This document shows, one piece after another, positions 7,959-36,507 of a stretch of 64,000 nt of DNA (its first letter is position 1; every line of letters starts with the position of its first letter). The notes under the pieces are model-generated. The model searched no databases and was not told the DNA's origin. It was given only the letters and a program-made list of their open reading frames with translations. Both the position numbers and the translations under genes were made by a program. Source of the stretch: Acidobacteriota bacterium (GTDB taxonomy: Bacteria > Acidobacteriota > Blastocatellia > UBA7656); the NCBI GenBank assembly GCA_040754075.1, contig JBFMDH010000015.1, positions 62,001-126,000 on the forward strand, written 5' to 3'.

Positions 7959-10331
7959 TCAATCTTTTTTCCAGGGGTCGCTAAGGCGTGCATCGGTGAT
8001 GAACAGTTCATCGGTCAGGCTCTTTAAAAAATTCACCAAATCCGTTTTCTCCTGCGCGGTCAGCTTGAAACCTTTCACGAAACTGCTCTTGAAGGGATTG
8101 TCGCGTCCGACCCCCGCATACTCGCCTGATTTAATTGTCCGTCCGCCCGCTGCATAATGGTCAATCGCTTCTTCCAGAGTTTGAATGCTGCCATCGTGCA
8201 TAAACGGCGCGGTCAACGCGATGTTGCGCAGCGTCGGCGCTTTGAATTTGCCCATATCTTCGGCATTTTTGCTGAAATCAAAGATGCCGGTGTTAGTCGC
8301 AGGGTACGCGCCTTTGCTGTCGATGTTGTAGAGACCGGTGTTATGAAATTCGATCTCGGCAAAAGCTTTGCCAACGTGGTCAACGGTTTCGGTGAAATTG
8401 AAACCGCCGTGACAGTGAAAGCATTCCAGGCGTTCGCTGAAAAACAGGTTCTCGCCGCGTTTTGCCGAAGCCGAAATCGCATTTTTGTCGCCACTATAAC
8501 GGTAACGGTCATAAGGCGAATTGCCGGAAATCAATGTGCGTTCAAACGAAGCGAGCGCTTTGGTGAGATTGCCGAGTGTAAACGGGTCGCGGTCTTCGGG
8601 GAAGGCTGCGGCAAAAAGTTTTTGATAAATTGGTTCGCCTTTCAACCTCTGCAACACTTCCACATCTTTTCCTGAAAGTCCGAGTTCGATGGGATGTTCG
8701 CCGAACATCGGCACCAGGGCTTGTTTTTCCAACTGTCGCATATTGGGATTTGACCAGGTGAGCACGGGGCTATAGGCGATGTTGGTCAATCCCATGCTGT
8801 TGCGCGGATGATGTTCGCCGGTCGCGCCCACTGCCAACGGATTTTCATCGGCAAAAGCGCGCTCCTGTTTATGACACGAAGCGCAGGCGAATTTGCCGGT
8901 GATGGAGAGTTGTTTGTCATAAAACAGGTAACGTCCGAGTTCGACTTTTTCGGCGGTCATCGGATTGTCTTCGGGAACCCTTGGGGTCGGAAACCCTTTC
9001 GGCAAATTCCACTCATAGGCTGCGGCGCGCGCTTTCATCACTTCACCTTCTGTAGTCGCGCTCGCCGTTTTCGTAGATTTTTCAAGATGAAAAAAGCTCT
9101 GTCCGGTGGCGGCGACGCCGGCAAACGGCAAGCCTAAATTCTTAAATATTCCCGCGCAATCCGCGTCCTGTGACGCCGACATACAACCGACCGCAGTATT
9201 CGGTTGATTGACATCGACGTTGGTGTCTTTGAGCAGCGCCTTCAAATCGGCAATCACCACATCGCCTTGCGGATTGAAATTTTTCAAAGTGATTTCCGGG
9301 CGATTGCCGTTGGCGCAGGCGGTCGGCACGGTGTTGGGCGAAGTGTTCGGCATACAACTGGTGCTGCCGAGATGCAACACGAAGCCTTTCGGCTGACCTG
9401 TGGTTTTCATGTCGATGCGGGCGAATTTATAACCGGCATTCCAGTTCCAAAACATACGACTGAGATTCAATGGCGAAGGTTGCGTGGTCGGGTCATTGTG
9501 ATTTTTATCGAAAGGCAAGCCGACAATAAAGCGCAAGCCGACATAATTGCCGACGGGCGCTTTGCCGCGAATCGTGTCGTTTATCTCTTTGGTGCCGTTG
9601 GCGCAATTGCCTTCGCCGTTTTCAAAATCCAACAAAGCGACATTGTCATATTGCCATTTGCCGTCTTGTGCGAGTTGCAAAGGAACTTCATTGCCTCGAC
9701 TGTCAATCAACCGCAGGTTATGAACATAGAGGCGAAAATCCGAAACCGTGATGGTTGAACCCGTCGTGCCAATCCCCTCGTAGCTTGATGAACAAGTGAA
9801 ATTCTGGTCGCCGACCATCGCGCGAAAATTGATGGCGAGGTCTTGGGTTTGTGATGACGAGGTTGCAGAGGTTTTAGGGTTTTGCGGTTCGTCATCTTTG
9901 TAAGGGTAGAACTGGCGGACATACGAGACCACCTGCCAGCGTTCGCGTTCGCTCATTTTGGTTTTATAGGCAGGCATTCCGCTTGTGCGTATGCCATTGG
10001 CGATGACCCAGTAAATTTCGCCGTCTTTGAGAAAGTGTGTGTGATGGTCGGTTAAATCCGTCGGTTTTTTCTTCAGTGCTTTAGCGGCGGCGGTTTGTGC
10101 TTTGCCGTCCGCGCCGTGACACGAAGCGCAATGCTGGTTGTAAAGCGCGCGCCCGTTGATTAAATCGGCTTCCGTAAGGTTCAAGGGGTTTTGCAATTTT
10201 TTGGCGGCGGCAGGGGCGTGGGCTTTGCCATCGTGCGCCGCAACGTTGGTTTCAAACTTGATCAACGCGGCGAAGATTGCCAGCGTGATGATAATAAGAA
10301 GAGCGATGATTTTGATATTTTTGATTTTCAT
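7959..10331 (-). CDS. Tripartite fusion: cytochrome c - MbnP-like copper protein - MbnH/MauG-like diheme peroxidase
   Basis: A single 790-residue frame. Residues 1-25 are a membrane anchor or signal. Residues 45-145 form a class I cytochrome c (CASCH at 68-72, candidate Met ligand in SGMPAY at 119). Residues about 165-417 match the MbnP/MXAN_0976 type: it opens INFRAMVGDQNF, then has SDFRLYVHNLRL, RMFWNWNAGYKF with Trp295 and Trp297, and HLGSTSC followed by a second Cys. Residues about 432-790 are a diheme cytochrome c peroxidase of the MbnH/MauG group (CASCH 483-487, CFHCH 637-641, and FMHDGSIQTLEEAIDHY). In methanotrophs MbnH is a separate enzyme that oxidises a tryptophan of MbnP to kynurenine. 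Here enzyme, substrate and an electron-carrying heme are one chain. AAGGA lies 7 nt before the ATG, and the CusF-like gene ends 16 nt upstream. Confidence 0.88.
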   Translation of the reverse strand: MKIKNIKIIALLIIITLAIFAALIKFETNVAAHDGKAHAPAAAKKLQNPLNLTEADLINGRALYNQHCASCHGADGKAQTAAAKALKKKPTDLTDHHTHFLKDGEIYWVIANGIRTSGMPAYKTKMSERERWQVVSYVRQFYPYKDDEPQNPKTSATSSSQTQDLAINFRAMVGDQNFTCSSSYEGIGTTGSTITVSDFRLYVHNLRLIDSRGNEVPLQLAQDGKWQYDNVALLDFENGEGNCANGTKEINDTIRGKAPVGNYVGLRFIVGLPFDKNHNDPTTQPSPLNLSRMFWNWNAGYKFARIDMKTTGQPKGFVLHLGSTSCMPNTSPNTVPTACANGNRPEITLKNFNPQGDVVIADLKALLKDTNVDVNQPNTAVGCMSASQDADCAGIFKNLGLPFAGVAATGQSFFHLEKSTKTASATTEGEVMKARAAAYEWNLPKGFPTPRVPEDNPMTAEKVELGRYLFYDKQLSITGKFACASCHKQERAFADENPLAVGATGEHHPRNSMGLTNIAYSPVLTWSNPNMRQLEKQALVPMFGEHPIELGLSGKDVEVLQRLKGEPIYQKLFAAAFPEDRDPFTLGNLTKALASFERTLISGNSPYDRYRYSGDKNAISASAKRGENLFFSERLECFHCHGGFNFTETVDHVGKAFAEIEFHNTGLYNIDSKGAYPATNTGIFDFSKNAEDMGKFKAPTLRNIALTAPFMHDGSIQTLEEAIDHYAAGGRTIKSGEYAGVGRDNPFKSSFVKGFKLTAQEKTDLVNFLKSLTDELFITDARLSDPWKKD

Positions 10332-10347
10332 AATTTATTCCTTACGG

Positions 10348-28985: not shown

Positions 28986-29006
28986 TTTTAGCTTTTAGCT
29001 TTTAGC
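28986..29006. repeat. Three-unit heptamer array TTTTAGC at the arsR stop
   Basis: Three exact TTTTAGC units with a 7-nt period. On the minus strand the unit is GCTAAAA, and the TAA stop of the ArsR gene (29002-29004) is in the first unit. Further units would give a stop in all three frames. No second arm was found. Confidence 0.75.
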
Positions 29007-29340
29007 TTACCAATGCGCGGGTCTTTTCGATTTGCGCTTTTAAGACTTTGCCGATTAGTTGACAGGCTTGTTTGACTTCGGGGATGGCGAGCGAGCAATA
29101 AATCTGTTTGCCGACGCGGCGGGTTTTCAAAACTCCCGCGGATTTCAAAATCGCCAGATGTTGCGAGACATTGGTCTTCGAGGCGTTCAGTTTTTCAATC
29201 AATTCGGAAACGCCCATCTCGCCGTTGCCGAGCAAATCCAATATCTGTATGCGCGTCGGATGCGCGAAGGCTTTACAAATATTTGCCTGCATCTCGTAGA
29301 GAATCTGGTCGGTGGCGTTTTTTGGGGCTGCTTTTTTCAT
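29002..29340 (-). CDS. ArsR-family winged-helix regulator
   Basis: From ATG 29340 a 112-residue protein, the usual size; the frame also allows ATG 29409, adding 23 residues across the hairpin at 29360. Neither has a strong ribosome-binding site. The winged helix is clear: NICKAFAHPTRIQILDLLG, GVSELIEKLNASKTNVSQHL, then AGVLKTRRVGKQIYCSL. The wing lacks the classical ELCVCD metal site, but a Cys occurs in KQIYCSLA and another near the C-terminus. It is the last gene of the cytochrome/porin operon, and may sense metal, redox or sulfur species; inferred from location only. Confidence 0.85.
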   Translation of the reverse strand: MKKAAPKNATDQILYEMQANICKAFAHPTRIQILDLLGNGEMGVSELIEKLNASKTNVSQHLAILKSAGVLKTRRVGKQIYCSLAIPEVKQACQLIGKVLKAQIEKTRALVS

Positions 29341-29359
29341 GTAGAAATCGCTGATTGGC

Positions 29360-29391
29360 GGAGAAGCAGACGATAGGTCGTCTGCTTCTCC
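29360..29391. promoter_or_regulatory. Perfect 14-bp hairpin before arsR
   Basis: GGAGAAGCAGACGA and its inverse complement flank a 4-nt loop, between the octaheme cytochrome stop (29411) and the arsR ATG (29340). No T-run follows. It could be an attenuating stem, a processing site or the operator for the ArsR dimer. Confidence 0.6.
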
Positions 29392-29410
29392 TTTGAAATC
29401 AGCGCTCATT

Positions 29411-30832
29411 CTACTTTCTTGAATTGGATTTGAGCAAGACATTGAGCGGGTCTCCTTTATACCCCAATGCTTTCCAATCCACGCGCCCATTGGCGCTGTG
29501 ACAATCAAGACAGGTCAAAGCTTTCTTAGCGGGCTGTACGCCGTGAAAGATTCCCATATATCTTGAAGTGTCCGTCCAGGTAAATTGAGCGTCTTCGATT
29601 TTGTACATTGCTTTAGCTGCTTCCTTTACTGCCGGGTCAATCTTGCCGTTGGGGAAAAATTGCTCGACCATAATCGGAATCAACCAGTTCTTCTGAGCCA
29701 GGAGAGGCATCCTTCCTTTATGAAGTTTAAATGCGAACAATTTGGCTTTCGGGTCGAGGCGTGAACCTTGCGGCACCATCATCCCGACCGAGCCGTCTTT
29801 GAGCCGCGTCACCGGTTCTCCCGGCAAGTAGGCTCTGGTTAAACCGTTAAACCAGGCAAACACCGGCTTCACATCTTTTTGCAAAGTGATGCTGGCACTG
29901 TAGCGGTCGCTGGCTTCTATGTAAGCAGGTTTAGACCAATCGCGCATCATGTCTGTCGCTTCGTCGCGCGCGAAACTCGGAATATGACAGACCGTGCAAT
30001 TGATCCGCTTCGTGTGATGATTGAGCGCCTCGGCTTTGTGAGGCGTGGCGCTGTGACAACCGCTCGCGTCACAGGTGAGCGGTTTCGAGGGCATATCGCT
30101 TCCCGCAAGGTCTGCGCCGCGTCCGCGCACCCGGTGATCCTCGCCCGCGTGACAGGTGACGCATTGCATATTCTTGCCGTCGGTTGCCATATGCACATCA
30201 TAGTCGCGGTCGCAATCGGCAAGCTTGTACTCCAAATCCCCGCGCTTGAAGTTTGCGCCGCCGCCCGAGGCGTTATGACACCGCAGACACATTGCCCTTG
30301 TGGGAAGCGAAATGCGCTTGGATACCGAATCCAACCCTTCGCGGTTTTTCCAAAGCAACGGTTTCCATTCAAAAGCCCCTTCCGGCGTTTCAAAAAGTTC
30401 GCGCCGATAGCCGCTGGCGTGACAAATCAGACAATCGATGTTTTGCAACTGCGCGTCGCTCATTTTGTCGGATGGCATTTTGCCAAGCCCCGCGTGACAG
30501 GCTGAACACCCTCTGCTGATGATGTCGCCGCGCGAGTTTTTGACCAAGCCTATCCAGTTATTGGCAGGACTGGTGCAAAAATCGTTAATCGTATTCAATT
30601 TGCCAAGCTGGCGTTTTCTGGCGTTGACAATCTGTGGCGCATTGCCGCGCCATTGATAATGCTGCGAATGAAAAAAATTCTCCGCATCTTTCCGGTGACA
30701 CTGTAAACAGGTCTGGGTTCCTTCGTAATGCTCGAAGTAATCGGCGTGCGTGTACTGCTTTTCCTGGTCACGCGCGAAACCCACGACCAGCATCAACAAC
30801 AGGAATCCGATGGTTACAAGGTATTTCATCAC
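29411..30832 (-). CDS. Octaheme c-type cytochrome (tetrathionate-reductase-like)
   Basis: A 473-residue exported cytochrome, with signal peptide about 1-20. Eight heme motifs are visible in order: CLQCH, CSACH, CLICH, CLRCH, CVTCH, CDASGCH (a longer CX4CH), CTVCH and CLDCH. The stretch KRINCTVCHIPSFARDE followed by RDWSKPAY and VFAWFNGLTRAYLPG resembles the octaheme tetrathionate reductase family of Shewanella. Such proteins reduce tetrathionate, nitrite or hydroxylamine in vitro. It lies 8 nt downstream of the DUF3373 porin, in an operon with a monoheme cytochrome upstream and ArsR downstream. The physiological substrate is unknown. Confidence 0.88.
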   Translation of the reverse strand: MMKYLVTIGFLLLMLVVGFARDQEKQYTHADYFEHYEGTQTCLQCHRKDAENFFHSQHYQWRGNAPQIVNARKRQLGKLNTINDFCTSPANNWIGLVKNSRGDIISRGCSACHAGLGKMPSDKMSDAQLQNIDCLICHASGYRRELFETPEGAFEWKPLLWKNREGLDSVSKRISLPTRAMCLRCHNASGGGANFKRGDLEYKLADCDRDYDVHMATDGKNMQCVTCHAGEDHRVRGRGADLAGSDMPSKPLTCDASGCHSATPHKAEALNHHTKRINCTVCHIPSFARDEATDMMRDWSKPAYIEASDRYSASITLQKDVKPVFAWFNGLTRAYLPGEPVTRLKDGSVGMMVPQGSRLDPKAKLFAFKLHKGRMPLLAQKNWLIPIMVEQFFPNGKIDPAVKEAAKAMYKIEDAQFTWTDTSRYMGIFHGVQPAKKALTCLDCHSANGRVDWKALGYKGDPLNVLLKSNSRK

Positions 30833-30840
30833 CCACCTCC

Positions 30841-32634
30841 CTAAAAACGCGCCACTAAACCGACAGAGAATTTCGACGCTTTGCTGTAGGTCGGGAATCC
30901 CAGAATCGGCGAATCGGTCAGTTTCTTTGGCGCTCCGAGATGCCAGCCGGAGCCTGAATACTTGTAGTTGTAACGCATGAAGTCGGCTTTGAAGATGAAC
31001 CGGCTGGTGATGCGATGGGTGAAGTAGGTTTCATAAACTTCGCCGCGCGTGTTGGTTTTGGGCGAAATAATATCGTCTTCGGCTTGCGCGAAATTGAACC
31101 AGTATTTCGAGCCTTTGTTGAATTCAAAACCAATCTTGCTGCGGTCATCGTTGCCGAAACCATAACGCGCGCCGAGATAAATCATGCTGCCGTTTTGATT
31201 TTTCGGAACCTCGAACGGATCAACCCCAAGCCCGCCAAACGGCGTGGTCTTGTCGTTCGGACGAAGCCCGACGAAATTGGCGCTCACAAAGGTATCCAGA
31301 TGATTGAACTTGCGCGTGACATTCAAGCCATAGAGATTGATGTTGCCGAGATTCGTTGACGGCGTAAAGCGCATTACCACGGGCGCTCCGACAGGGTCGC
31401 CGGTCAAGGGATTATTCGGTAAAACCATCGTGCCGTTGAAGCCGTCCGTGACATCGAAAGCGCGCGCGACCGTGGCTTGAATCAACATATTTTCGGAAGT
31501 CCACAGGTCAACATTGCCGCCCAGGAAATGCACATCTTTCAAACGGTCTTGCGGGAGTTTCAACACTTCACCGTTGCCGAATCCCGATTCATAACCGACG
31601 CCGTAACAGAGTCGCAAAATCGTGTGGTCGCTGGCGCGGAAACCGAACGTCATACCGTCGAATTGATAATCAATCAATGCGCCCGATGGCGTGCCGCCGC
31701 GCAGTTCGTCTTGACGCAGATTGAGCGGCGGTCCTTCGGTTGACGGACGACGACCGATTGAGAGGAAGAACGGCGAATTGCCGATGTTATTCCAGGTGAA
31801 GTAGGCGCGTTCAACGCGCAGAATGTCGGAATTGGGAACCCCTGCGGTGGTTCCGTCTATGTTCAAGGTGTTCGGCGCGCCATTAAAGACCTGCACGCCT
31901 GTGGAATCGCCGAAAACTTTGTACATACTGAGTCGCGCAGAGACCGTCAGGTTATCCGCCAGTTGCGAATCCATGCGAATGCGCAGGCGATTGGTGTAGA
32001 GGATTTTGTTGTCGGCTTTGTATTCGGGAACGAAGGTTGCGGGCATCAACATGCCGAATAATTGTTGTTGCAACTCGGCAGGGAATTGCCCCATCGCCTG
32101 TTTGAGTTGGTCAAAAGTCAAACTGCTGGTGAAGTATTGATAATCGCTGTAATGCCCGGCGACCGCTTGATTGATTTCGTTGACGCTCGCGGGCGGGCGT
32201 CCGAGTACGTTCATGGCGAACATACTTTTGACCACCAGGTTCTGCAATTTCATGCCATCGAAATGTGCCGGGATGGTGCCTTGAATCGAGTGCGCTTCAA
32301 AGCGATAATCGCCGCCGAATTTCACCCGTTGCAAGGCGGTGTCGCGTTCGGTTTTGGTGACCCGGCGGTCGAGGTCTTTCAGTTGTTCATTGGTTTTTTG
32401 GTCAGGGGTTGTGGCTTGAACTTCAGTTTGTTTTTTTTCCTGTGCGGCAAGCCTCTCTTCAAGCGCCGAGATGGTCTTTTTTAAGAGTTCGATTTCCTGA
32501 CGGAGTTGGTCTGTAGGAGCGGTTTCTTTCTGAGCGGAAGTGGTCGGTTGGTTGACCGGAGTCGGGTTTTGCGCCCAAACCAAAGGACCTGGAAGCAATA
32601 TAAGTGCGATAAAAAGATTAATAAACTTGCGCAT
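30841..32634 (-). CDS. DUF3373-like outer-membrane porin
   Basis: A 597-residue exported protein. The signal peptide ends LVWAQ near residue 22. A coiled coil spans about 40-110 (QEIELLKKTISALEERLAAQ). The rest is a long beta-barrel with alternating strands, closing with KFSVGLVARF, a C-terminal Phe typical of outer-membrane proteins. It matches the DUF3373 type known from Geobacter-like and sulfur-cycling bacteria, often next to multiheme cytochromes. It may form the barrel of a porin-cytochrome conduit; this is inferred from neighbours. 43 nt separate it from the monoheme cytochrome gene. Confidence 0.8.
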   Translation of the reverse strand: MRKFINLFIALILLPGPLVWAQNPTPVNQPTTSAQKETAPTDQLRQEIELLKKTISALEERLAAQEKKQTEVQATTPDQKTNEQLKDLDRRVTKTERDTALQRVKFGGDYRFEAHSIQGTIPAHFDGMKLQNLVVKSMFAMNVLGRPPASVNEINQAVAGHYSDYQYFTSSLTFDQLKQAMGQFPAELQQQLFGMLMPATFVPEYKADNKILYTNRLRIRMDSQLADNLTVSARLSMYKVFGDSTGVQVFNGAPNTLNIDGTTAGVPNSDILRVERAYFTWNNIGNSPFFLSIGRRPSTEGPPLNLRQDELRGGTPSGALIDYQFDGMTFGFRASDHTILRLCYGVGYESGFGNGEVLKLPQDRLKDVHFLGGNVDLWTSENMLIQATVARAFDVTDGFNGTMVLPNNPLTGDPVGAPVVMRFTPSTNLGNINLYGLNVTRKFNHLDTFVSANFVGLRPNDKTTPFGGLGVDPFEVPKNQNGSMIYLGARYGFGNDDRSKIGFEFNKGSKYWFNFAQAEDDIISPKTNTRGEVYETYFTHRITSRFIFKADFMRYNYKYSGSGWHLGAPKKLTDSPILGFPTYSKASKFSVGLVARF

Positions 32635-32677
32635 TATCCCACCTCCTTAATTGGGTTGTAAGAGCAAGCGCCGCAAG

Positions 32678-33037
32678 CTAACTGCTACAGGTTTGCGGCT
32701 GTTCGGAATCGGCTGCGTGATCGACGCAGTATTTTTGAATGAGTTTTATCTGTTCGGGAGTCAAAGCTTCGAGCAGTTTTTTATTCTGACCCGGCAGCAT
32801 GACATCTTTATGTGTAGCGGCAAATTTTACGGTGAAAAATTTTTTCCATTGATCCTGAATCAATGTCATGGGGCTGTATTCCCCGTTTGGCGAATCCTTG
32901 GCGTGACAGACGCGACAATTCTGTTTAAACAGGTCTTTGCCACTAGTGGCGGCAGGTTTGTCATCGGCGGGCGTCACCAGTACGAGGGCTAACAGGCTGA
33001 ACAGGGCAAGCGCGATGATACGTTTCGCAAGCTGCAT
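32678..33037 (-). CDS. Monoheme c-type cytochrome
   Basis: A 119-residue exported protein with signal peptide about 1-22. One heme motif, CRVCH near residue 41, and a candidate axial Met in VMLPGQNKKLLEALTPEQ near residue 80. The last Cys residues (KYCVDHAADSE, QTCSS) are unusual for a small cytochrome. It is the first gene of the operon with the DUF3373 porin, the octaheme cytochrome and ArsR, and may carry electrons between the octaheme protein and the quinol pool. Confidence 0.82.
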   Translation of the reverse strand: MQLAKRIIALALFSLLALVLVTPADDKPAATSGKDLFKQNCRVCHAKDSPNGEYSPMTLIQDQWKKFFTVKFAATHKDVMLPGQNKKLLEALTPEQIKLIQKYCVDHAADSEQPQTCSS

Positions 33038-33430: not shown

Positions 33431-34087
33431 TTACAGGCGGTGCGTTTTCCCGGATAAGACCTTAGTGATTTTCATCTCCCGGACAGTATCAAGGAGGTTG
33501 AACCAACCCGGCTTTTTCTCTGAAGCAGGTAAAGGTGCTTCAAGCCGGTTCAAGCGGATGCCGCAATGTTTACAAAAGACGGCGTTAGCGAGATTGTCGT
33601 TGCCGCACCTTGAACAATAATTTTCGGGAGTTCGGTGTTTAAGGGAATGGAATTCCTGAAATTCAACTGTTGCAGTTTGCGCTGGTAATTTAAGTTCTAA
33701 TGCCGACGAGGGGGACGTCGTGATACGCAACCCCTCGGCAGAATTGGCGCTGGTATTTGTTGGTTCCGGCATATTGGCTTTCACCCAGATGTCCATCAGT
33801 TGACGACGCGCTAAAGCGATTTTGGCATGCGGGTCAGACGTTTCGCTTGCCGGCAGGGCGATTTTTCGGGTACGCAGGCGGCGGGCGATGCGATAGGCGC
33901 GGCTGGAACCGGTTGAGGGAGATTGGCTGCGAACCTTTTCGACGATTTTAAAGAAAGCGATGCGGTCGCTTGCCCGGTCGCTGATTAGCCCTTGCAGTGT
34001 TAAAAACGCCCAGACTGCCGCGGGTTTTTGTAAATCGCAAACCGCCAGACTGGACGTGAGTAAATCCCAACATTCGGGTGATTCCAT
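33431..34087 (-). CDS. Protein with C-terminal double-CxxC zinc ribbon
   Basis: From ATG 34087 (GGAGG 5 nt upstream) a 218-residue protein. The N-terminal ~100 residues are helical (VWAFLTLQGLISDRASDRIA) and without motif; a Ser/Thr/Pro-rich linker follows. A zinc ribbon occurs near residues 157-179: YCSRCGNDNLANAVFCKHCG, with four cysteines. Such ribbons in otherwise unrelated proteins often mediate protein contacts. Function unknown. It is downstream of the OPT transporter gene, separated by a long hairpin. Confidence 0.65.
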   Translation of the reverse strand: MESPECWDLLTSSLAVCDLQKPAAVWAFLTLQGLISDRASDRIAFFKIVEKVRSQSPSTGSSRAYRIARRLRTRKIALPASETSDPHAKIALARRQLMDIWVKANMPEPTNTSANSAEGLRITTSPSSALELKLPAQTATVEFQEFHSLKHRTPENYCSRCGNDNLANAVFCKHCGIRLNRLEAPLPASEKKPGWFNLLDTVREMKITKVLSGKTHRL

Positions 34088-34103
34088 CGCTTCCTCCAAA
34101 ATT

Positions 34104-34203: not shown

Positions 34204-36507
34204 TTACTCTTCAGCCTGTCGTTTGCTTCGTAAAATCAACTCACGCCCGGTCAGGTAAAGCAAAACAATGAGAACCGCAAAAGGAATCAACGAAAGCAGG
34301 TCAGCACTTACGCCGCTGAAAAACGGGTTATGCGCGGCGCTTTCTTCAACCCCTTTGTTGAAACTTTCAAAAGCCGGGATACCGGCAAGGAACGCGATGA
34401 CAATACCTGCCAACGCGCCGCCTGCGATGTAGCCGGAAGCCATCAAGACACCGCCACTCTTATCGCCTTCGGCAGTAAGTTCCTCTTCGGTGAGTTTTTT
34501 GTGAGCGAATTTGCGCGCCAAATATTTATCAACCAACCAGCGAATCATGCCACCAATGAAAATCGGGCTTGAAGATGAAAGTGGCAGATAGACACCTACC
34601 GCAAATGCCAGTGAGGGAATGCCGCTCATCTCTAACACCAGCGCAATCATCACACCCAGAAGCACCAACCCCCAAGGGAGTTTTCTATCGAGAATGCCTT
34701 TAATGATGTAAGACATTAAGGTGGCTTTCGGCGCATCAAATTTTTGTACGGTTGAACCATCAGGTCGTTCTCTGAAGGTGCCATTAATGCCTGGGTCAAC
34801 CAGATAGGCAGGGGTGCCATCATCTCTAACCAGGTATTTGTGATGGTTGCCGCTTGCTTCATCGAGTTTGAAATAGACCCGATAGGTATTGGTATCGGAT
34901 GATGCCTGGACGCCCTGGAGTTTTTCCTGTGGTAAGGCTGAGGCATTATCGACACGAAAATCTGCCGATACTTTTTCGCCAACCGGCACATAAATAGTTG
35001 AGGAATCGTTCAGCTTCAAAAGAATCGGTCCCAGAATCAACGCCGACGCCAGCGCGCCAATCAAGATGGCGATTTGCTGATTGCTTGGTGTCGCGCCAAC
35101 CAGATAGCCGGTCTTCAAATCCTGTGATGTGGTGCCGCCGTTGGATGCCGCTATGCAAACGATGCCGCCGATGGAAAGCGCCGTCACGTAATAAACATTT
35201 CCCGTCCAGCCGACGATTAAAAAAATCAAACAAGTAAACAATAAGGTTGCAACCGTCATCCCCGAAATCGGATTTGATGACGACCCGATTTCACCCGTGA
35301 GTCTTGAAGACACAGTCACAAATAAAAAGCCGAACGCAATAATCAGAATTGCGCCGAGCAGATTCCATTGCAGGTTGAGTTGCGGAAAAATCATAATCAT
35401 CGCAATCAACACGATGATGCCGCCAAGCACGACTTTCATGGAAAGGTCTTTGTCTGTGCGCAAGGTCGAAGCTGCTGCGGCTTGTCCGCCTTTGAAGTCA
35501 GCGATGCCACCTTTGATGCCGTGCCAGATGGTCGGTAATGACCGCGCCAGGCTGACGATGCCGCCTGCCGCGACTGCGCCCGCGCCAATGTATAAAATAT
35601 AAGCACCGCGAATTCCGTTGGGTGACATATCGCTGATGGGTTCAGTGCCTGGCGGCAACACCGTAGTCATGCCTTCGCCAAAAAATTTGATTGCGGGAAT
35701 CAATACCAGATAAGCCAGGACGCCGCCCGCGCACATAATCGAAGCGATGCGTGGCCCGATGATATACCCAACGCCTAAGAGTTCAGGAGAAATTTCCGCA
35801 GAGATCGAACCGGCTTTGAATGGCGCGCCGAAGATTTTTTCGGGCACATCTTTCCAGCCTTTGAATGCTACCATCGCCACTTTATAAAGCAGTCCGATAC
35901 CAAAACCTGTGAAGATAGTTTTGGCGCCAGTCGCTTCGACGACTTTTTCATCGCCTAAGGATGCTGCTTGGCGCGATTCCTGTGAAGCTCCGGCTTTCAA
36001 GACTTCAGCGCAGGCTGTGCCTTCAGGGTATTTCAACAAACCGTGCTGTTGCACAATGAGCGCGCGGCGCAGCGGAATCATCATCAGGATACCAATCAAA
36101 CCGCCAAGAATTGCCACCAGCATCACGCGGGTGATTTCCAGGTCAAATCCTAAAATTAAAATCGCCGGCATCGTAACCCCGACGCCGAAAGCGATGGACT
36201 CGCCCGCCGAACCTGCGGTTTGCACAATGTTATTTTCAAGAATAGTGGCATTTTTCAATCCCAGTTTTGAAAGCATCGTAAATAAACTAATGGAAATGAC
36301 GGCGACTGGGATTGAGGCGCTGACAGTTAATCCGACTTTCAAAACCAGGTAAAGCGAAGAAGCGCCGAATACCATGCCAAGCAAGGTGCCGACGATGAGC
36401 GGCAGCGGCGTCAGTTCGCGCAATTTCGCGGATGCCGGAATATACGGCTTAAAATGGGACGTTGGCGGCGTGTCCTGCACTGCAACATTGGTAATCTCTT
36501 TATTCAT
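34204..36507 (-). CDS. OPT family oligopeptide transporter
   Basis: A 767-residue polytopic membrane protein with about 14-16 hydrophobic segments. It begins FKPYIPASAKLRELTPLPLI and contains LVGTLLG-like and MMIPLRRALIVQQHGLLKYPEGTACAEVLKAG, a signature of the bacterial OPT branch. A soluble loop of about 110 residues lies near 530-640. The family imports peptides or metal chelates using the proton gradient. GGAGGG lies 5 nt before the ATG. It is divergent from aat. Confidence 0.92.
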   Translation of the reverse strand: MNKEITNVAVQDTPPTSHFKPYIPASAKLRELTPLPLIVGTLLGMVFGASSLYLVLKVGLTVSASIPVAVISISLFTMLSKLGLKNATILENNIVQTAGSAGESIAFGVGVTMPAILILGFDLEITRVMLVAILGGLIGILMMIPLRRALIVQQHGLLKYPEGTACAEVLKAGASQESRQAASLGDEKVVEATGAKTIFTGFGIGLLYKVAMVAFKGWKDVPEKIFGAPFKAGSISAEISPELLGVGYIIGPRIASIMCAGGVLAYLVLIPAIKFFGEGMTTVLPPGTEPISDMSPNGIRGAYILYIGAGAVAAGGIVSLARSLPTIWHGIKGGIADFKGGQAAAASTLRTDKDLSMKVVLGGIIVLIAMIMIFPQLNLQWNLLGAILIIAFGFLFVTVSSRLTGEIGSSSNPISGMTVATLLFTCLIFLIVGWTGNVYYVTALSIGGIVCIAASNGGTTSQDLKTGYLVGATPSNQQIAILIGALASALILGPILLKLNDSSTIYVPVGEKVSADFRVDNASALPQEKLQGVQASSDTNTYRVYFKLDEASGNHHKYLVRDDGTPAYLVDPGINGTFRERPDGSTVQKFDAPKATLMSYIIKGILDRKLPWGLVLLGVMIALVLEMSGIPSLAFAVGVYLPLSSSSPIFIGGMIRWLVDKYLARKFAHKKLTEEELTAEGDKSGGVLMASGYIAGGALAGIVIAFLAGIPAFESFNKGVEESAAHNPFFSGVSADLLSLIPFAVLIVLLYLTGRELILRSKRQAEE

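Follow-up and report, generated by a model that had tools for sequence, protein, structure and literature searches.

We analysed a 64,000-nucleotide stretch of the 7.58 Mb genome of an Acidobacteriota bacterium (positions 62001-126000 of contig 15, hereafter the window). On its minus strand it encodes a monoheme c-type cytochrome, an outer-membrane porin of the DUF3373 family, an octaheme c-type cytochrome resembling octaheme tetrathionate reductase (OTR) and an ArsR-family regulator. The unit as a whole is best explained as a system that reduces a small soluble sulfur oxyanion in the periplasm, tetrathionate being the likeliest one, a reading we consider probable. The surprising part is a module with exchangeable enzymes, and this main result lies outside the window: gene order and a porin tree show that OTR, molybdoenzymes resembling PsrA and PhsA, and a further octaheme family have repeatedly replaced each other behind the porin. 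The best reading is a front end of outer-membrane porin and cytochrome, served by periplasmic reductases of soluble sulfur oxyanions that can stand in for one another. As its name says, DUF3373 is a domain of unknown function, and the literature matches listed, with subscription papers mostly outside their scope, held no description of such a porin-enzyme module.

Read along the minus strand, the tightly packed open reading frames (ORFs), which were called mechanically, run from the monoheme cytochrome (32678..33037, 119 aa) through the porin (30841..32634, 597 aa) and the octaheme cytochrome (29411..30829, 472 aa) to the ArsR/SmtB-family repressor (29002..29340, 112 aa), with gaps of 43, 11 and 70 nt. 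The porin-octaheme gap is 8 nt if the octaheme begins at GTG 30832; in our judgement ATG 30829 is the favoured start, because GGAGGTGGGTG precedes it. The repressor is counted from ATG 29340, and a start at the in-frame ATG 29409 would leave 1 nt between it and the octaheme gene. An earlier note on this DNA had taken the four genes as one unit, and the common strand, the short gaps and the order conserved in relatives bear this out; its interpretation as a whole is partly supported. Octaheme and DUF3373 have one match each in the whole source genome. Scans for promoters and terminators gave no excess over shuffled sequences.

A survey of 396 genomes from this phylum gave octaheme matches in 63 and DUF3373 matches in 69. 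Every one of the 20 genomes with a near-full-length octaheme of at least 45% identity carries DUF3373 directly beside it on the same contig (partial matches at this identity in genomes G228, G164 and G104 are excluded from the count), so the arrangement is not due to chance. Ten further genomes have DUF3373 beside a less similar octaheme, giving 30 of 63 when the two match tables are compared.

The association holds when loci are approached from the porin. Loci were fetched through OTR matches (L031-L070), for DUF3373, mostly in genomes where no OTR adjoins it (L072-L091), and by similarity to a porin alignment of 21 rows, 13 of them from the window or from OTR-chosen loci (L092-L169). They represent part of the 69 DUF3373 genomes. 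Some porin-similarity loci are the same contigs as genome-survey loci; copies with identical last 200 residues were dropped, and counts exclude porin genes of 300 aa or less (for example a broken copy in L085) and partners of 120 aa or less. Based on porin similarity alone, 75 of 78 loci have an enzyme partner within 4 kb (OTR in 61, a molybdoenzyme in 9 and another octaheme, of 689-790 aa, in 5), and the other three stop at a contig edge. Over all collected loci, which are spread over several phyla, 106 of the 110 distinct DUF3373 genes lie less than 4 kb from one of these enzymes, with the nearest partner on the porin's strand in 105 of the 106; the four partnerless porins are within 1.5 kb of a contig end.

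The porin tree has 109 rows, 105 of them labelled with one of three partner types. At least 15 changes of partner are needed on this tree, compared with a possible minimum of 2 and a mean of 25.9 for shuffled labels. The molybdoenzyme label alone accounts for 13 changes, 12 of which are forced by starred branches, gain not being distinguishable from loss. Our trees are quick trees with support from the Shimodaira-Hasegawa-like approximate likelihood ratio test (SH-aLRT) only, and the porin tree leaves 25 of its 106 inner branches open. Even close porins can have different partners, as in the pair L101 (OTR) and L138 (molybdoenzyme).

Five of the molybdoenzymes (L073, L078, L079, L082 and L091) were scanned with NCBIfam and have thiosulfate reductase PhsA as their best match, at 505-595 bits; two more were scanned with Pfam, and L137 repeats L079 as L133 repeats L072. 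The best PDB match of the L073 protein is 2vpw, named thiosulfate reductase (E 4e-147), followed by ArrA (4e-51). In L137, from Candidatus Polarisedimenticola svalbardensis AM4 and on the contig of L079, the molybdoenzyme gene is followed by an ORF of iron-sulfur (FeS) type, recognised by eye, and by NrfD. The available part of PMC8528874 places a PsrA of the AM4 metagenome-assembled genome in a polysulfide/thiosulfate clade, and this PsrA is presumably the L137/L079 gene. The link to the polysulfide/thiosulfate reductases PsrABC/PhsABC is that relatives of the unit have PsrA/PhsA-like proteins in the enzyme position next to this type of porin; these are molybdoenzymes rather than octahemes, and are absent from the window unit.

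The third partner, represented by L099:2826-4931, L083:708-2774, L100, L114, L116 and L122, has Cytochrome_C7 as its only Pfam match in the two copies scanned. The L083 copy gives a partial match (35 bits) to TIGR04315, the NCBIfam model for octahemes of the tetrathionate reductase family, and for the L099 copy the PDB gave nothing at E 1, for which reason we leave the family unnamed. On the partial match it may be a distant relative of OTR, so that the molybdoenzyme swap is the one case in which the enzymes exchanged are certainly unrelated; possibly it is an uncharacterised family of oxidoreductases.

The window octaheme matches the OTR of Shewanella oneidensis (PDB 1sp3) with E 3.4e-58 over residues 36-464 of 473. 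It has seven CXXCH haem sites and one CX4CH site (CDASGCH, residues 253-259 of 472, 30053..30073 on the minus strand), the counterpart of CENCH (C209-H213) in 1sp3, so the earlier note was right to see an octaheme of the tetrathionate-reductase kind with a single CX4CH. We aligned octahemes of 440-800 aa with E < 1e-30, excluding fusions of about 1,100 aa. At each of the eight sites the Cys, Cys and His columns show no variation across 76 porin-linked sequences, the window's own included, and 10 unlinked homologues. The counterparts of Lys153 (K195, codon 30245..30247, minus strand) and Cys64 (C85, codon 30575..30577, minus strand) are likewise Lys and Cys in 76/76 and 10/10, and Asn61 is retained in 67/76 and 10/10. 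We take Lys153 of 1sp3 to be the ligand of the catalytic haem and Cys64 an active-site residue; that Asn61 and Asp150 have roles there is likewise our assumption. Of 45 distinct close octahemes (E < 1e-100, window included), 23 have seven CXXCH and one CX4CH, 18 have eight CXXCH, and 4 have seven CXXCH only.

In the octaheme tree, made by the same quick method, there are three OTR-like clades, all with porin-linked members. The first contains 1sp3, Betaproteobacteria, Desulfobacteraceae and some Acidobacteriota; three of its members (L063, L143 and L156) pass the TIGR04315 cut-off with 502-575 bits. The window clade comprises Acidobacteriota, Gammaproteobacteria and bins named Krumholzibacteriota, Gemmatimonas, Fibrobacter and Kiritimatiellales, and the third comprises Geobacteraceae and three Acidobacteriota genomes; the window-clade and Geobacter members tested miss the cut-off. 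Compared with 1sp3, the window protein has full-length homology, the eight c-haem sites and the Lys153 and Cys64 counterparts, and differs in its one CX4CH, its 33% identity and its own clade. The unit also adds a porin and a Cys-tailed monoheme to the octaheme, Shewanella being represented in this comparison by the protein 1sp3 and not by its locus.

OTR-like domains also occur inside larger proteins with 14 CXXCH (L059:8161-11445, L060:6739-10131 and L070:6036-9356; also L056 and L057, at contig ends). The three ORFs that are complete have 1,094-1,130 aa, and none of these proteins has a DUF3373 neighbour in the fetched stretches. For an OTR on a Paracoccus plasmid, the PLSDB gene lists, which are incomplete, show no porin within 6 kb. 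A further OTR that is porin-less in the fetched stretch (L058:7066-10133) lies beside a PhsC-like cytochrome b, an ORF fragment of the Sulf_transp family and an ArsR; the cytochrome b match is weak, at 108.9 bits with a cut-off of 204.

As to activity, the accessible text of PMC8528874 states that, before its expression data, tetrathionate reduction by OTR-type enzymes had been shown only in biochemical assays. It reports that with tetrathionate the otr of Candidatus Sulfomarinibacter was up 36-fold at day 8 and 1.8-fold, not significantly, at day 1. This published result, on an otr from the Acidobacteriota, lends support to a unit that takes up and reduces a sulfur oxyanion. For Ramlibacter lithotrophicus, the literature matches listed contained nothing on sulfur.

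The porin scores 345.8 bits against PF11853 (gathering cut-off 26.1) and models as an outer-membrane barrel, in agreement with the earlier note. With a profile built from 21 relatives, the one clear match among solved chains is 10aw, '50 kDa outer membrane protein' (E 2e-39), which we take to be a Campylobacter protein. The AlphaFold2 model has 16 barrel strands, with a mean predicted local distance difference test score (pLDDT) of 73.7, several stretches being under 50, and a predicted template modelling score (pTM) of 0.70; an N-terminal coiled coil is predicted at 42-102 and a helical insert at about 127-200. Its closest solved folds among the matches listed are OmpM1, chitoporin, PorB, Omp32, OmpF/OmpC and OprP/OprO (Z about 20-22), and the modelled architecture is that of a diffusion pore. 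PMC4827864, in the part available, groups Omp50 and the DUF3373-bearing PBP family, which had no characterised member, in a single subcluster as pores of 18 strands. The window porin thus shares with Omp50-type porins (PF11853; 10aw; TC 1.B.60, 1.B.62) its Pfam family and homology across the barrel, and differs in its gene-order tie to a periplasmic oxidoreductase, its long helical insert and its modelled strands, 16 with low-confidence stretches as opposed to the 18 of the Omp50 criterion (TC 1.B.60) in PMC4827864.

The barrel bears directly on the proposal of the earlier note that the genes form a porin-cytochrome conduit, in which a cytochrome enclosed by the porin would carry electrons across the outer membrane. 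The porin gene does sit between two cytochrome genes, as in MtrAB/Pcc conduits, where porin and multihaem cytochrome genes adjoin, and Pcc porins have been accepted at 18-22 predicted strands, not only at the 28 predicted for Mtr (PMC4245776, as far as its text was available). The window unit differs from these systems in its barrel, modelled as a general porin, its octaheme from a family of soluble enzymes and its lack of a nearby gene for a surface cytochrome, which is a usual though not universal part of such clusters: inside the window, the 19 kb on either side of the unit contain no other ORF with more than one CXXCH. Moreover, the two entries of the solved relative contain six chains between them, a number that would fit trimers, and the enzyme slot may hold a molybdoenzyme without c-haem sites, so that a haem plug does not fit. 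We consider a conduit very improbable, and rejected it as the main explanation on the grounds of the barrel model and the enzyme swap.

The only other frame in the window with several CXXCH motifs is at 7962-10334 (minus strand, 791 aa, three CXXCH). In two relatives, a 10-haem protein and a protein of 609-613 aa are encoded downstream of porin and OTR (L128:3391-6229 and L129:3266-5966); of the latter, the L128 copy matched nothing in Pfam, and these genes could be a true outer-membrane conduit beside the porin-OTR module.

The monoheme cytochrome has a signal-like N-terminus, judged by eye, a CXXCH motif at residues 41-45 and the tail ADSEQPQTCSS. It occurs within 1.5 kb of 81 of the 110 porins. 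Its C-terminal cysteine (Cys117, codon 32687..32689, minus strand) is found in 84/84 distinct relatives, the window copy (L071) included, and CXXCH in 83/84; the strict tail DS..P.TC is found in 82/84, with L085 reading PAIC and L094 having trailing ambiguous residues. The homologue at L147:8693-9088 has lost CXXCH (it reads YKMCQ) and kept the cysteine tail. Invariant positions across 56 aligned sequences are C41, C44, H45, P56, W64, A108, D110, S111, P114, T116 and C117. No Met is conserved among these 56, and a His of the 66-92 loop is absent in seven, which leaves Cys117 as the only invariant candidate for a distal haem ligand; this does not prove ligation. The haem-free AlphaFold2 model has a mean pLDDT of 87.9, with 58 for residues 111-119; its tail is of low confidence, and none of 138 chains compared reached Z >= 5.

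Because Cys117 is as constant as the haem motif, the alignment suggests that it has a chemical role, as a carrier thiol or haem ligand. SoxY has a C-terminal Cys arm, and TsdA and SoxA have Cys-ligated haem. The analogy is limited to a key cysteine in a periplasmic sulfur protein; the window cysteine differs in being at the end of a monoheme cytochrome. On a more far-reaching reading, which we hold only tentatively, the DUF3373 porin, mostly with the Cys-tailed monoheme, is a general sulfur-oxyanion front end behind which unrelated enzymes have been swapped at least a dozen times, and the monoheme is a new redox sulfur carrier whose Cys117 takes the thiosulfate or sulfane product. Cys117 would then act as a SoxY-like arm or as a Cys haem ligand, serving whichever enzyme fills the slot, and on this reading both DUF3373 porins and OTR would gain a physiological role.

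The regulator scores 88.7 bits against NF033788 (cut-off 55) and 57.8 bits against the sulfite-sensing repressor BigR (NF040642), under the curated cut-off of 155. Seventeen sequences, the window's included, are close to it (E 5e-29 or better), seven of them in OTR loci, six in molybdoenzyme loci and four in loci with the other octaheme; the recurrence of one ArsR type in relatives' loci agrees with its inclusion in the unit by the earlier note. Cys22 and Cys93 are present in 17/17 and Cys82 in 15/17. This type is found in 16 of the 110 porin loci (the window's own locus, L071, is cut before the ArsR, hence 16 and not 17), the rest having other ArsR types or none. Across the 396 genomes there are four matches this close: three near the module (the source genome G000, G331 and G073) and one in G209, a genome with DUF3373 on another, short contig.

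The metal-binding place of classic ArsR proteins is the GEMGVSELIEKL stretch, and the window protein has no cysteine there. This bears on whether the substrate could be another chalcogen or metalloid oxyanion (selenite, tellurite or arsenate) with the ArsR as metalloid sensor. Such a substrate would suit the ArsR family of the regulator and the PsrA clade, which according to the available part of PMC8528874 holds selenite reductases. The Geobacter porin ExtI has also been implicated in selenite and tellurite reduction (PMC5877670, seen in part). It belongs to another family: we had considered ExtI as a DUF3373 protein and rejected this, since the same source assigns it to the OprO/P family. 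Given the cysteine-free stretch, and with no arsenic-resistance protein among the seven window ORFs run against Pfam, a metalloid substrate appears clearly improbable.

Several results weigh against the reading of the unit as a reductase system for a sulfur oxyanion. There is no DUF3373 beside the octaheme in 33 of the 63 octaheme-bearing genomes, so OTR does not need the porin, and the monoheme was undetected beside 29 of the 110 porins, including Geobacteraceae and Betaproteobacteria loci. The identity of the octaheme to 1sp3 is limited to the 33% given above, and Asp150 of 1sp3 is not conserved in the alignment, being Ala in the window protein. Against TIGR04315 it scores 295.6 bits over residues 30-457, under the curated cut-off of 375, and on sequence grounds we therefore file it only as a sister OTR-like clade and not as a member. 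The five scanned molybdoenzymes are all under the PhsA cut-off of 694, and their presumed PsrA clade is the one shared by selenite reductases (PMC8528874, in the part available). The window unit is without a quinol module and the source genome has four matches to haem-copper oxidase (COX1), which together leave room for an oxidative direction. Finally, Shewanella OTR also reduces nitrite and hydroxylamine, as the accessible part of PMC4484225 reports, so the identity of the enzyme does not fix the substrate.

This last activity would allow a nitrogen role, with nitrite passing through the porin and the octaheme reducing nitrite or hydroxylamine. NapC/NirT and NrfD proteins adjoin the enzymes of some relatives. 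Such proteins also serve nitrogen-oxide enzymes. Against this, PsrA/PhsA-like proteins replace the octaheme behind the same types of porin, monoheme and ArsR, and we regard a nitrogen substrate as unlikely. Sulfur-compound respiration, as suggested in the earlier note, is the likeliest theme.

The direction of electron flow is approached through the genes beside the enzyme in relatives. A cytochrome b561 gene is found there in L099 and L100 (other octaheme), L069, L143, L162, L165 and L167 (OTR) and L138 (molybdoenzyme and FeS protein), a NapC/NirT protein in L136 and NrfD in L137; in L161 and L114, none of the genes tested matched a family. Quinol modules next to the enzyme point to quinol as electron donor, and hence to reduction. 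In the source genome, NapC/NirT matches occur elsewhere in three places, the best with 55 bits. Outside the window this genome also has a multihaem island, a dense run of Cytochrome_C7 and NapC/NirT matches (G000:C14:25416-47297). If the unit ran oxidatively, thiosulfate would enter via the porin, the octaheme would couple it to tetrathionate, and the monoheme would carry the electrons to a haem-copper oxidase. The presence of a monoheme and no quinol dehydrogenase in the unit, the four COX1 matches and the potential of the tetrathionate/thiosulfate couple, near +198 mV in the part of PMC8528874 available, are all in line with this. However, quinol-linked b561, NapC/NirT or FeS/NrfD genes adjoin the enzyme in several relatives, and the monoheme is also present in loci with quinol modules (for example L069, L099, L137, L138 and L143), so we give oxidation a small but real chance. 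For the unit itself, we infer both substrate and direction.

Further upstream on the minus strand are an OPT-family oligopeptide transporter and a zinc-ribbon ORF (34204-36507 and 33431-34099), and L031 has an upstream gene similar in size.

In the reductive scheme we favour, the porin, as its fold suggests, would admit the sulfur oxyanion across the outer membrane, and the OTR-like octaheme, in which the catalytic-site lysine is kept, would reduce it in the periplasm. The monoheme would swap electrons with the enzyme or handle the sulfur product via Cys117. Electrons would come from quinol, which the window unit would draw on through a separate module, for instance a NapC/NirT-type protein encoded in another part of the genome. 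With its paired cysteines and none in the GEMGVSELIEKL stretch, the ArsR may be a thiol or persulfide switch. The porin, in most cases accompanied by the monoheme, would form the stable front end, with enzymes exchanged behind it.

That the porin stays constant while OTR and PsrA/PhsA-like enzymes are swapped, some of them with the same type of ArsR, points to a sulfur substrate common to them, which can be tested. The module would also be a recognisable marker of sulfur-oxyanion respiration for the Acidobacteriota and several other phyla.

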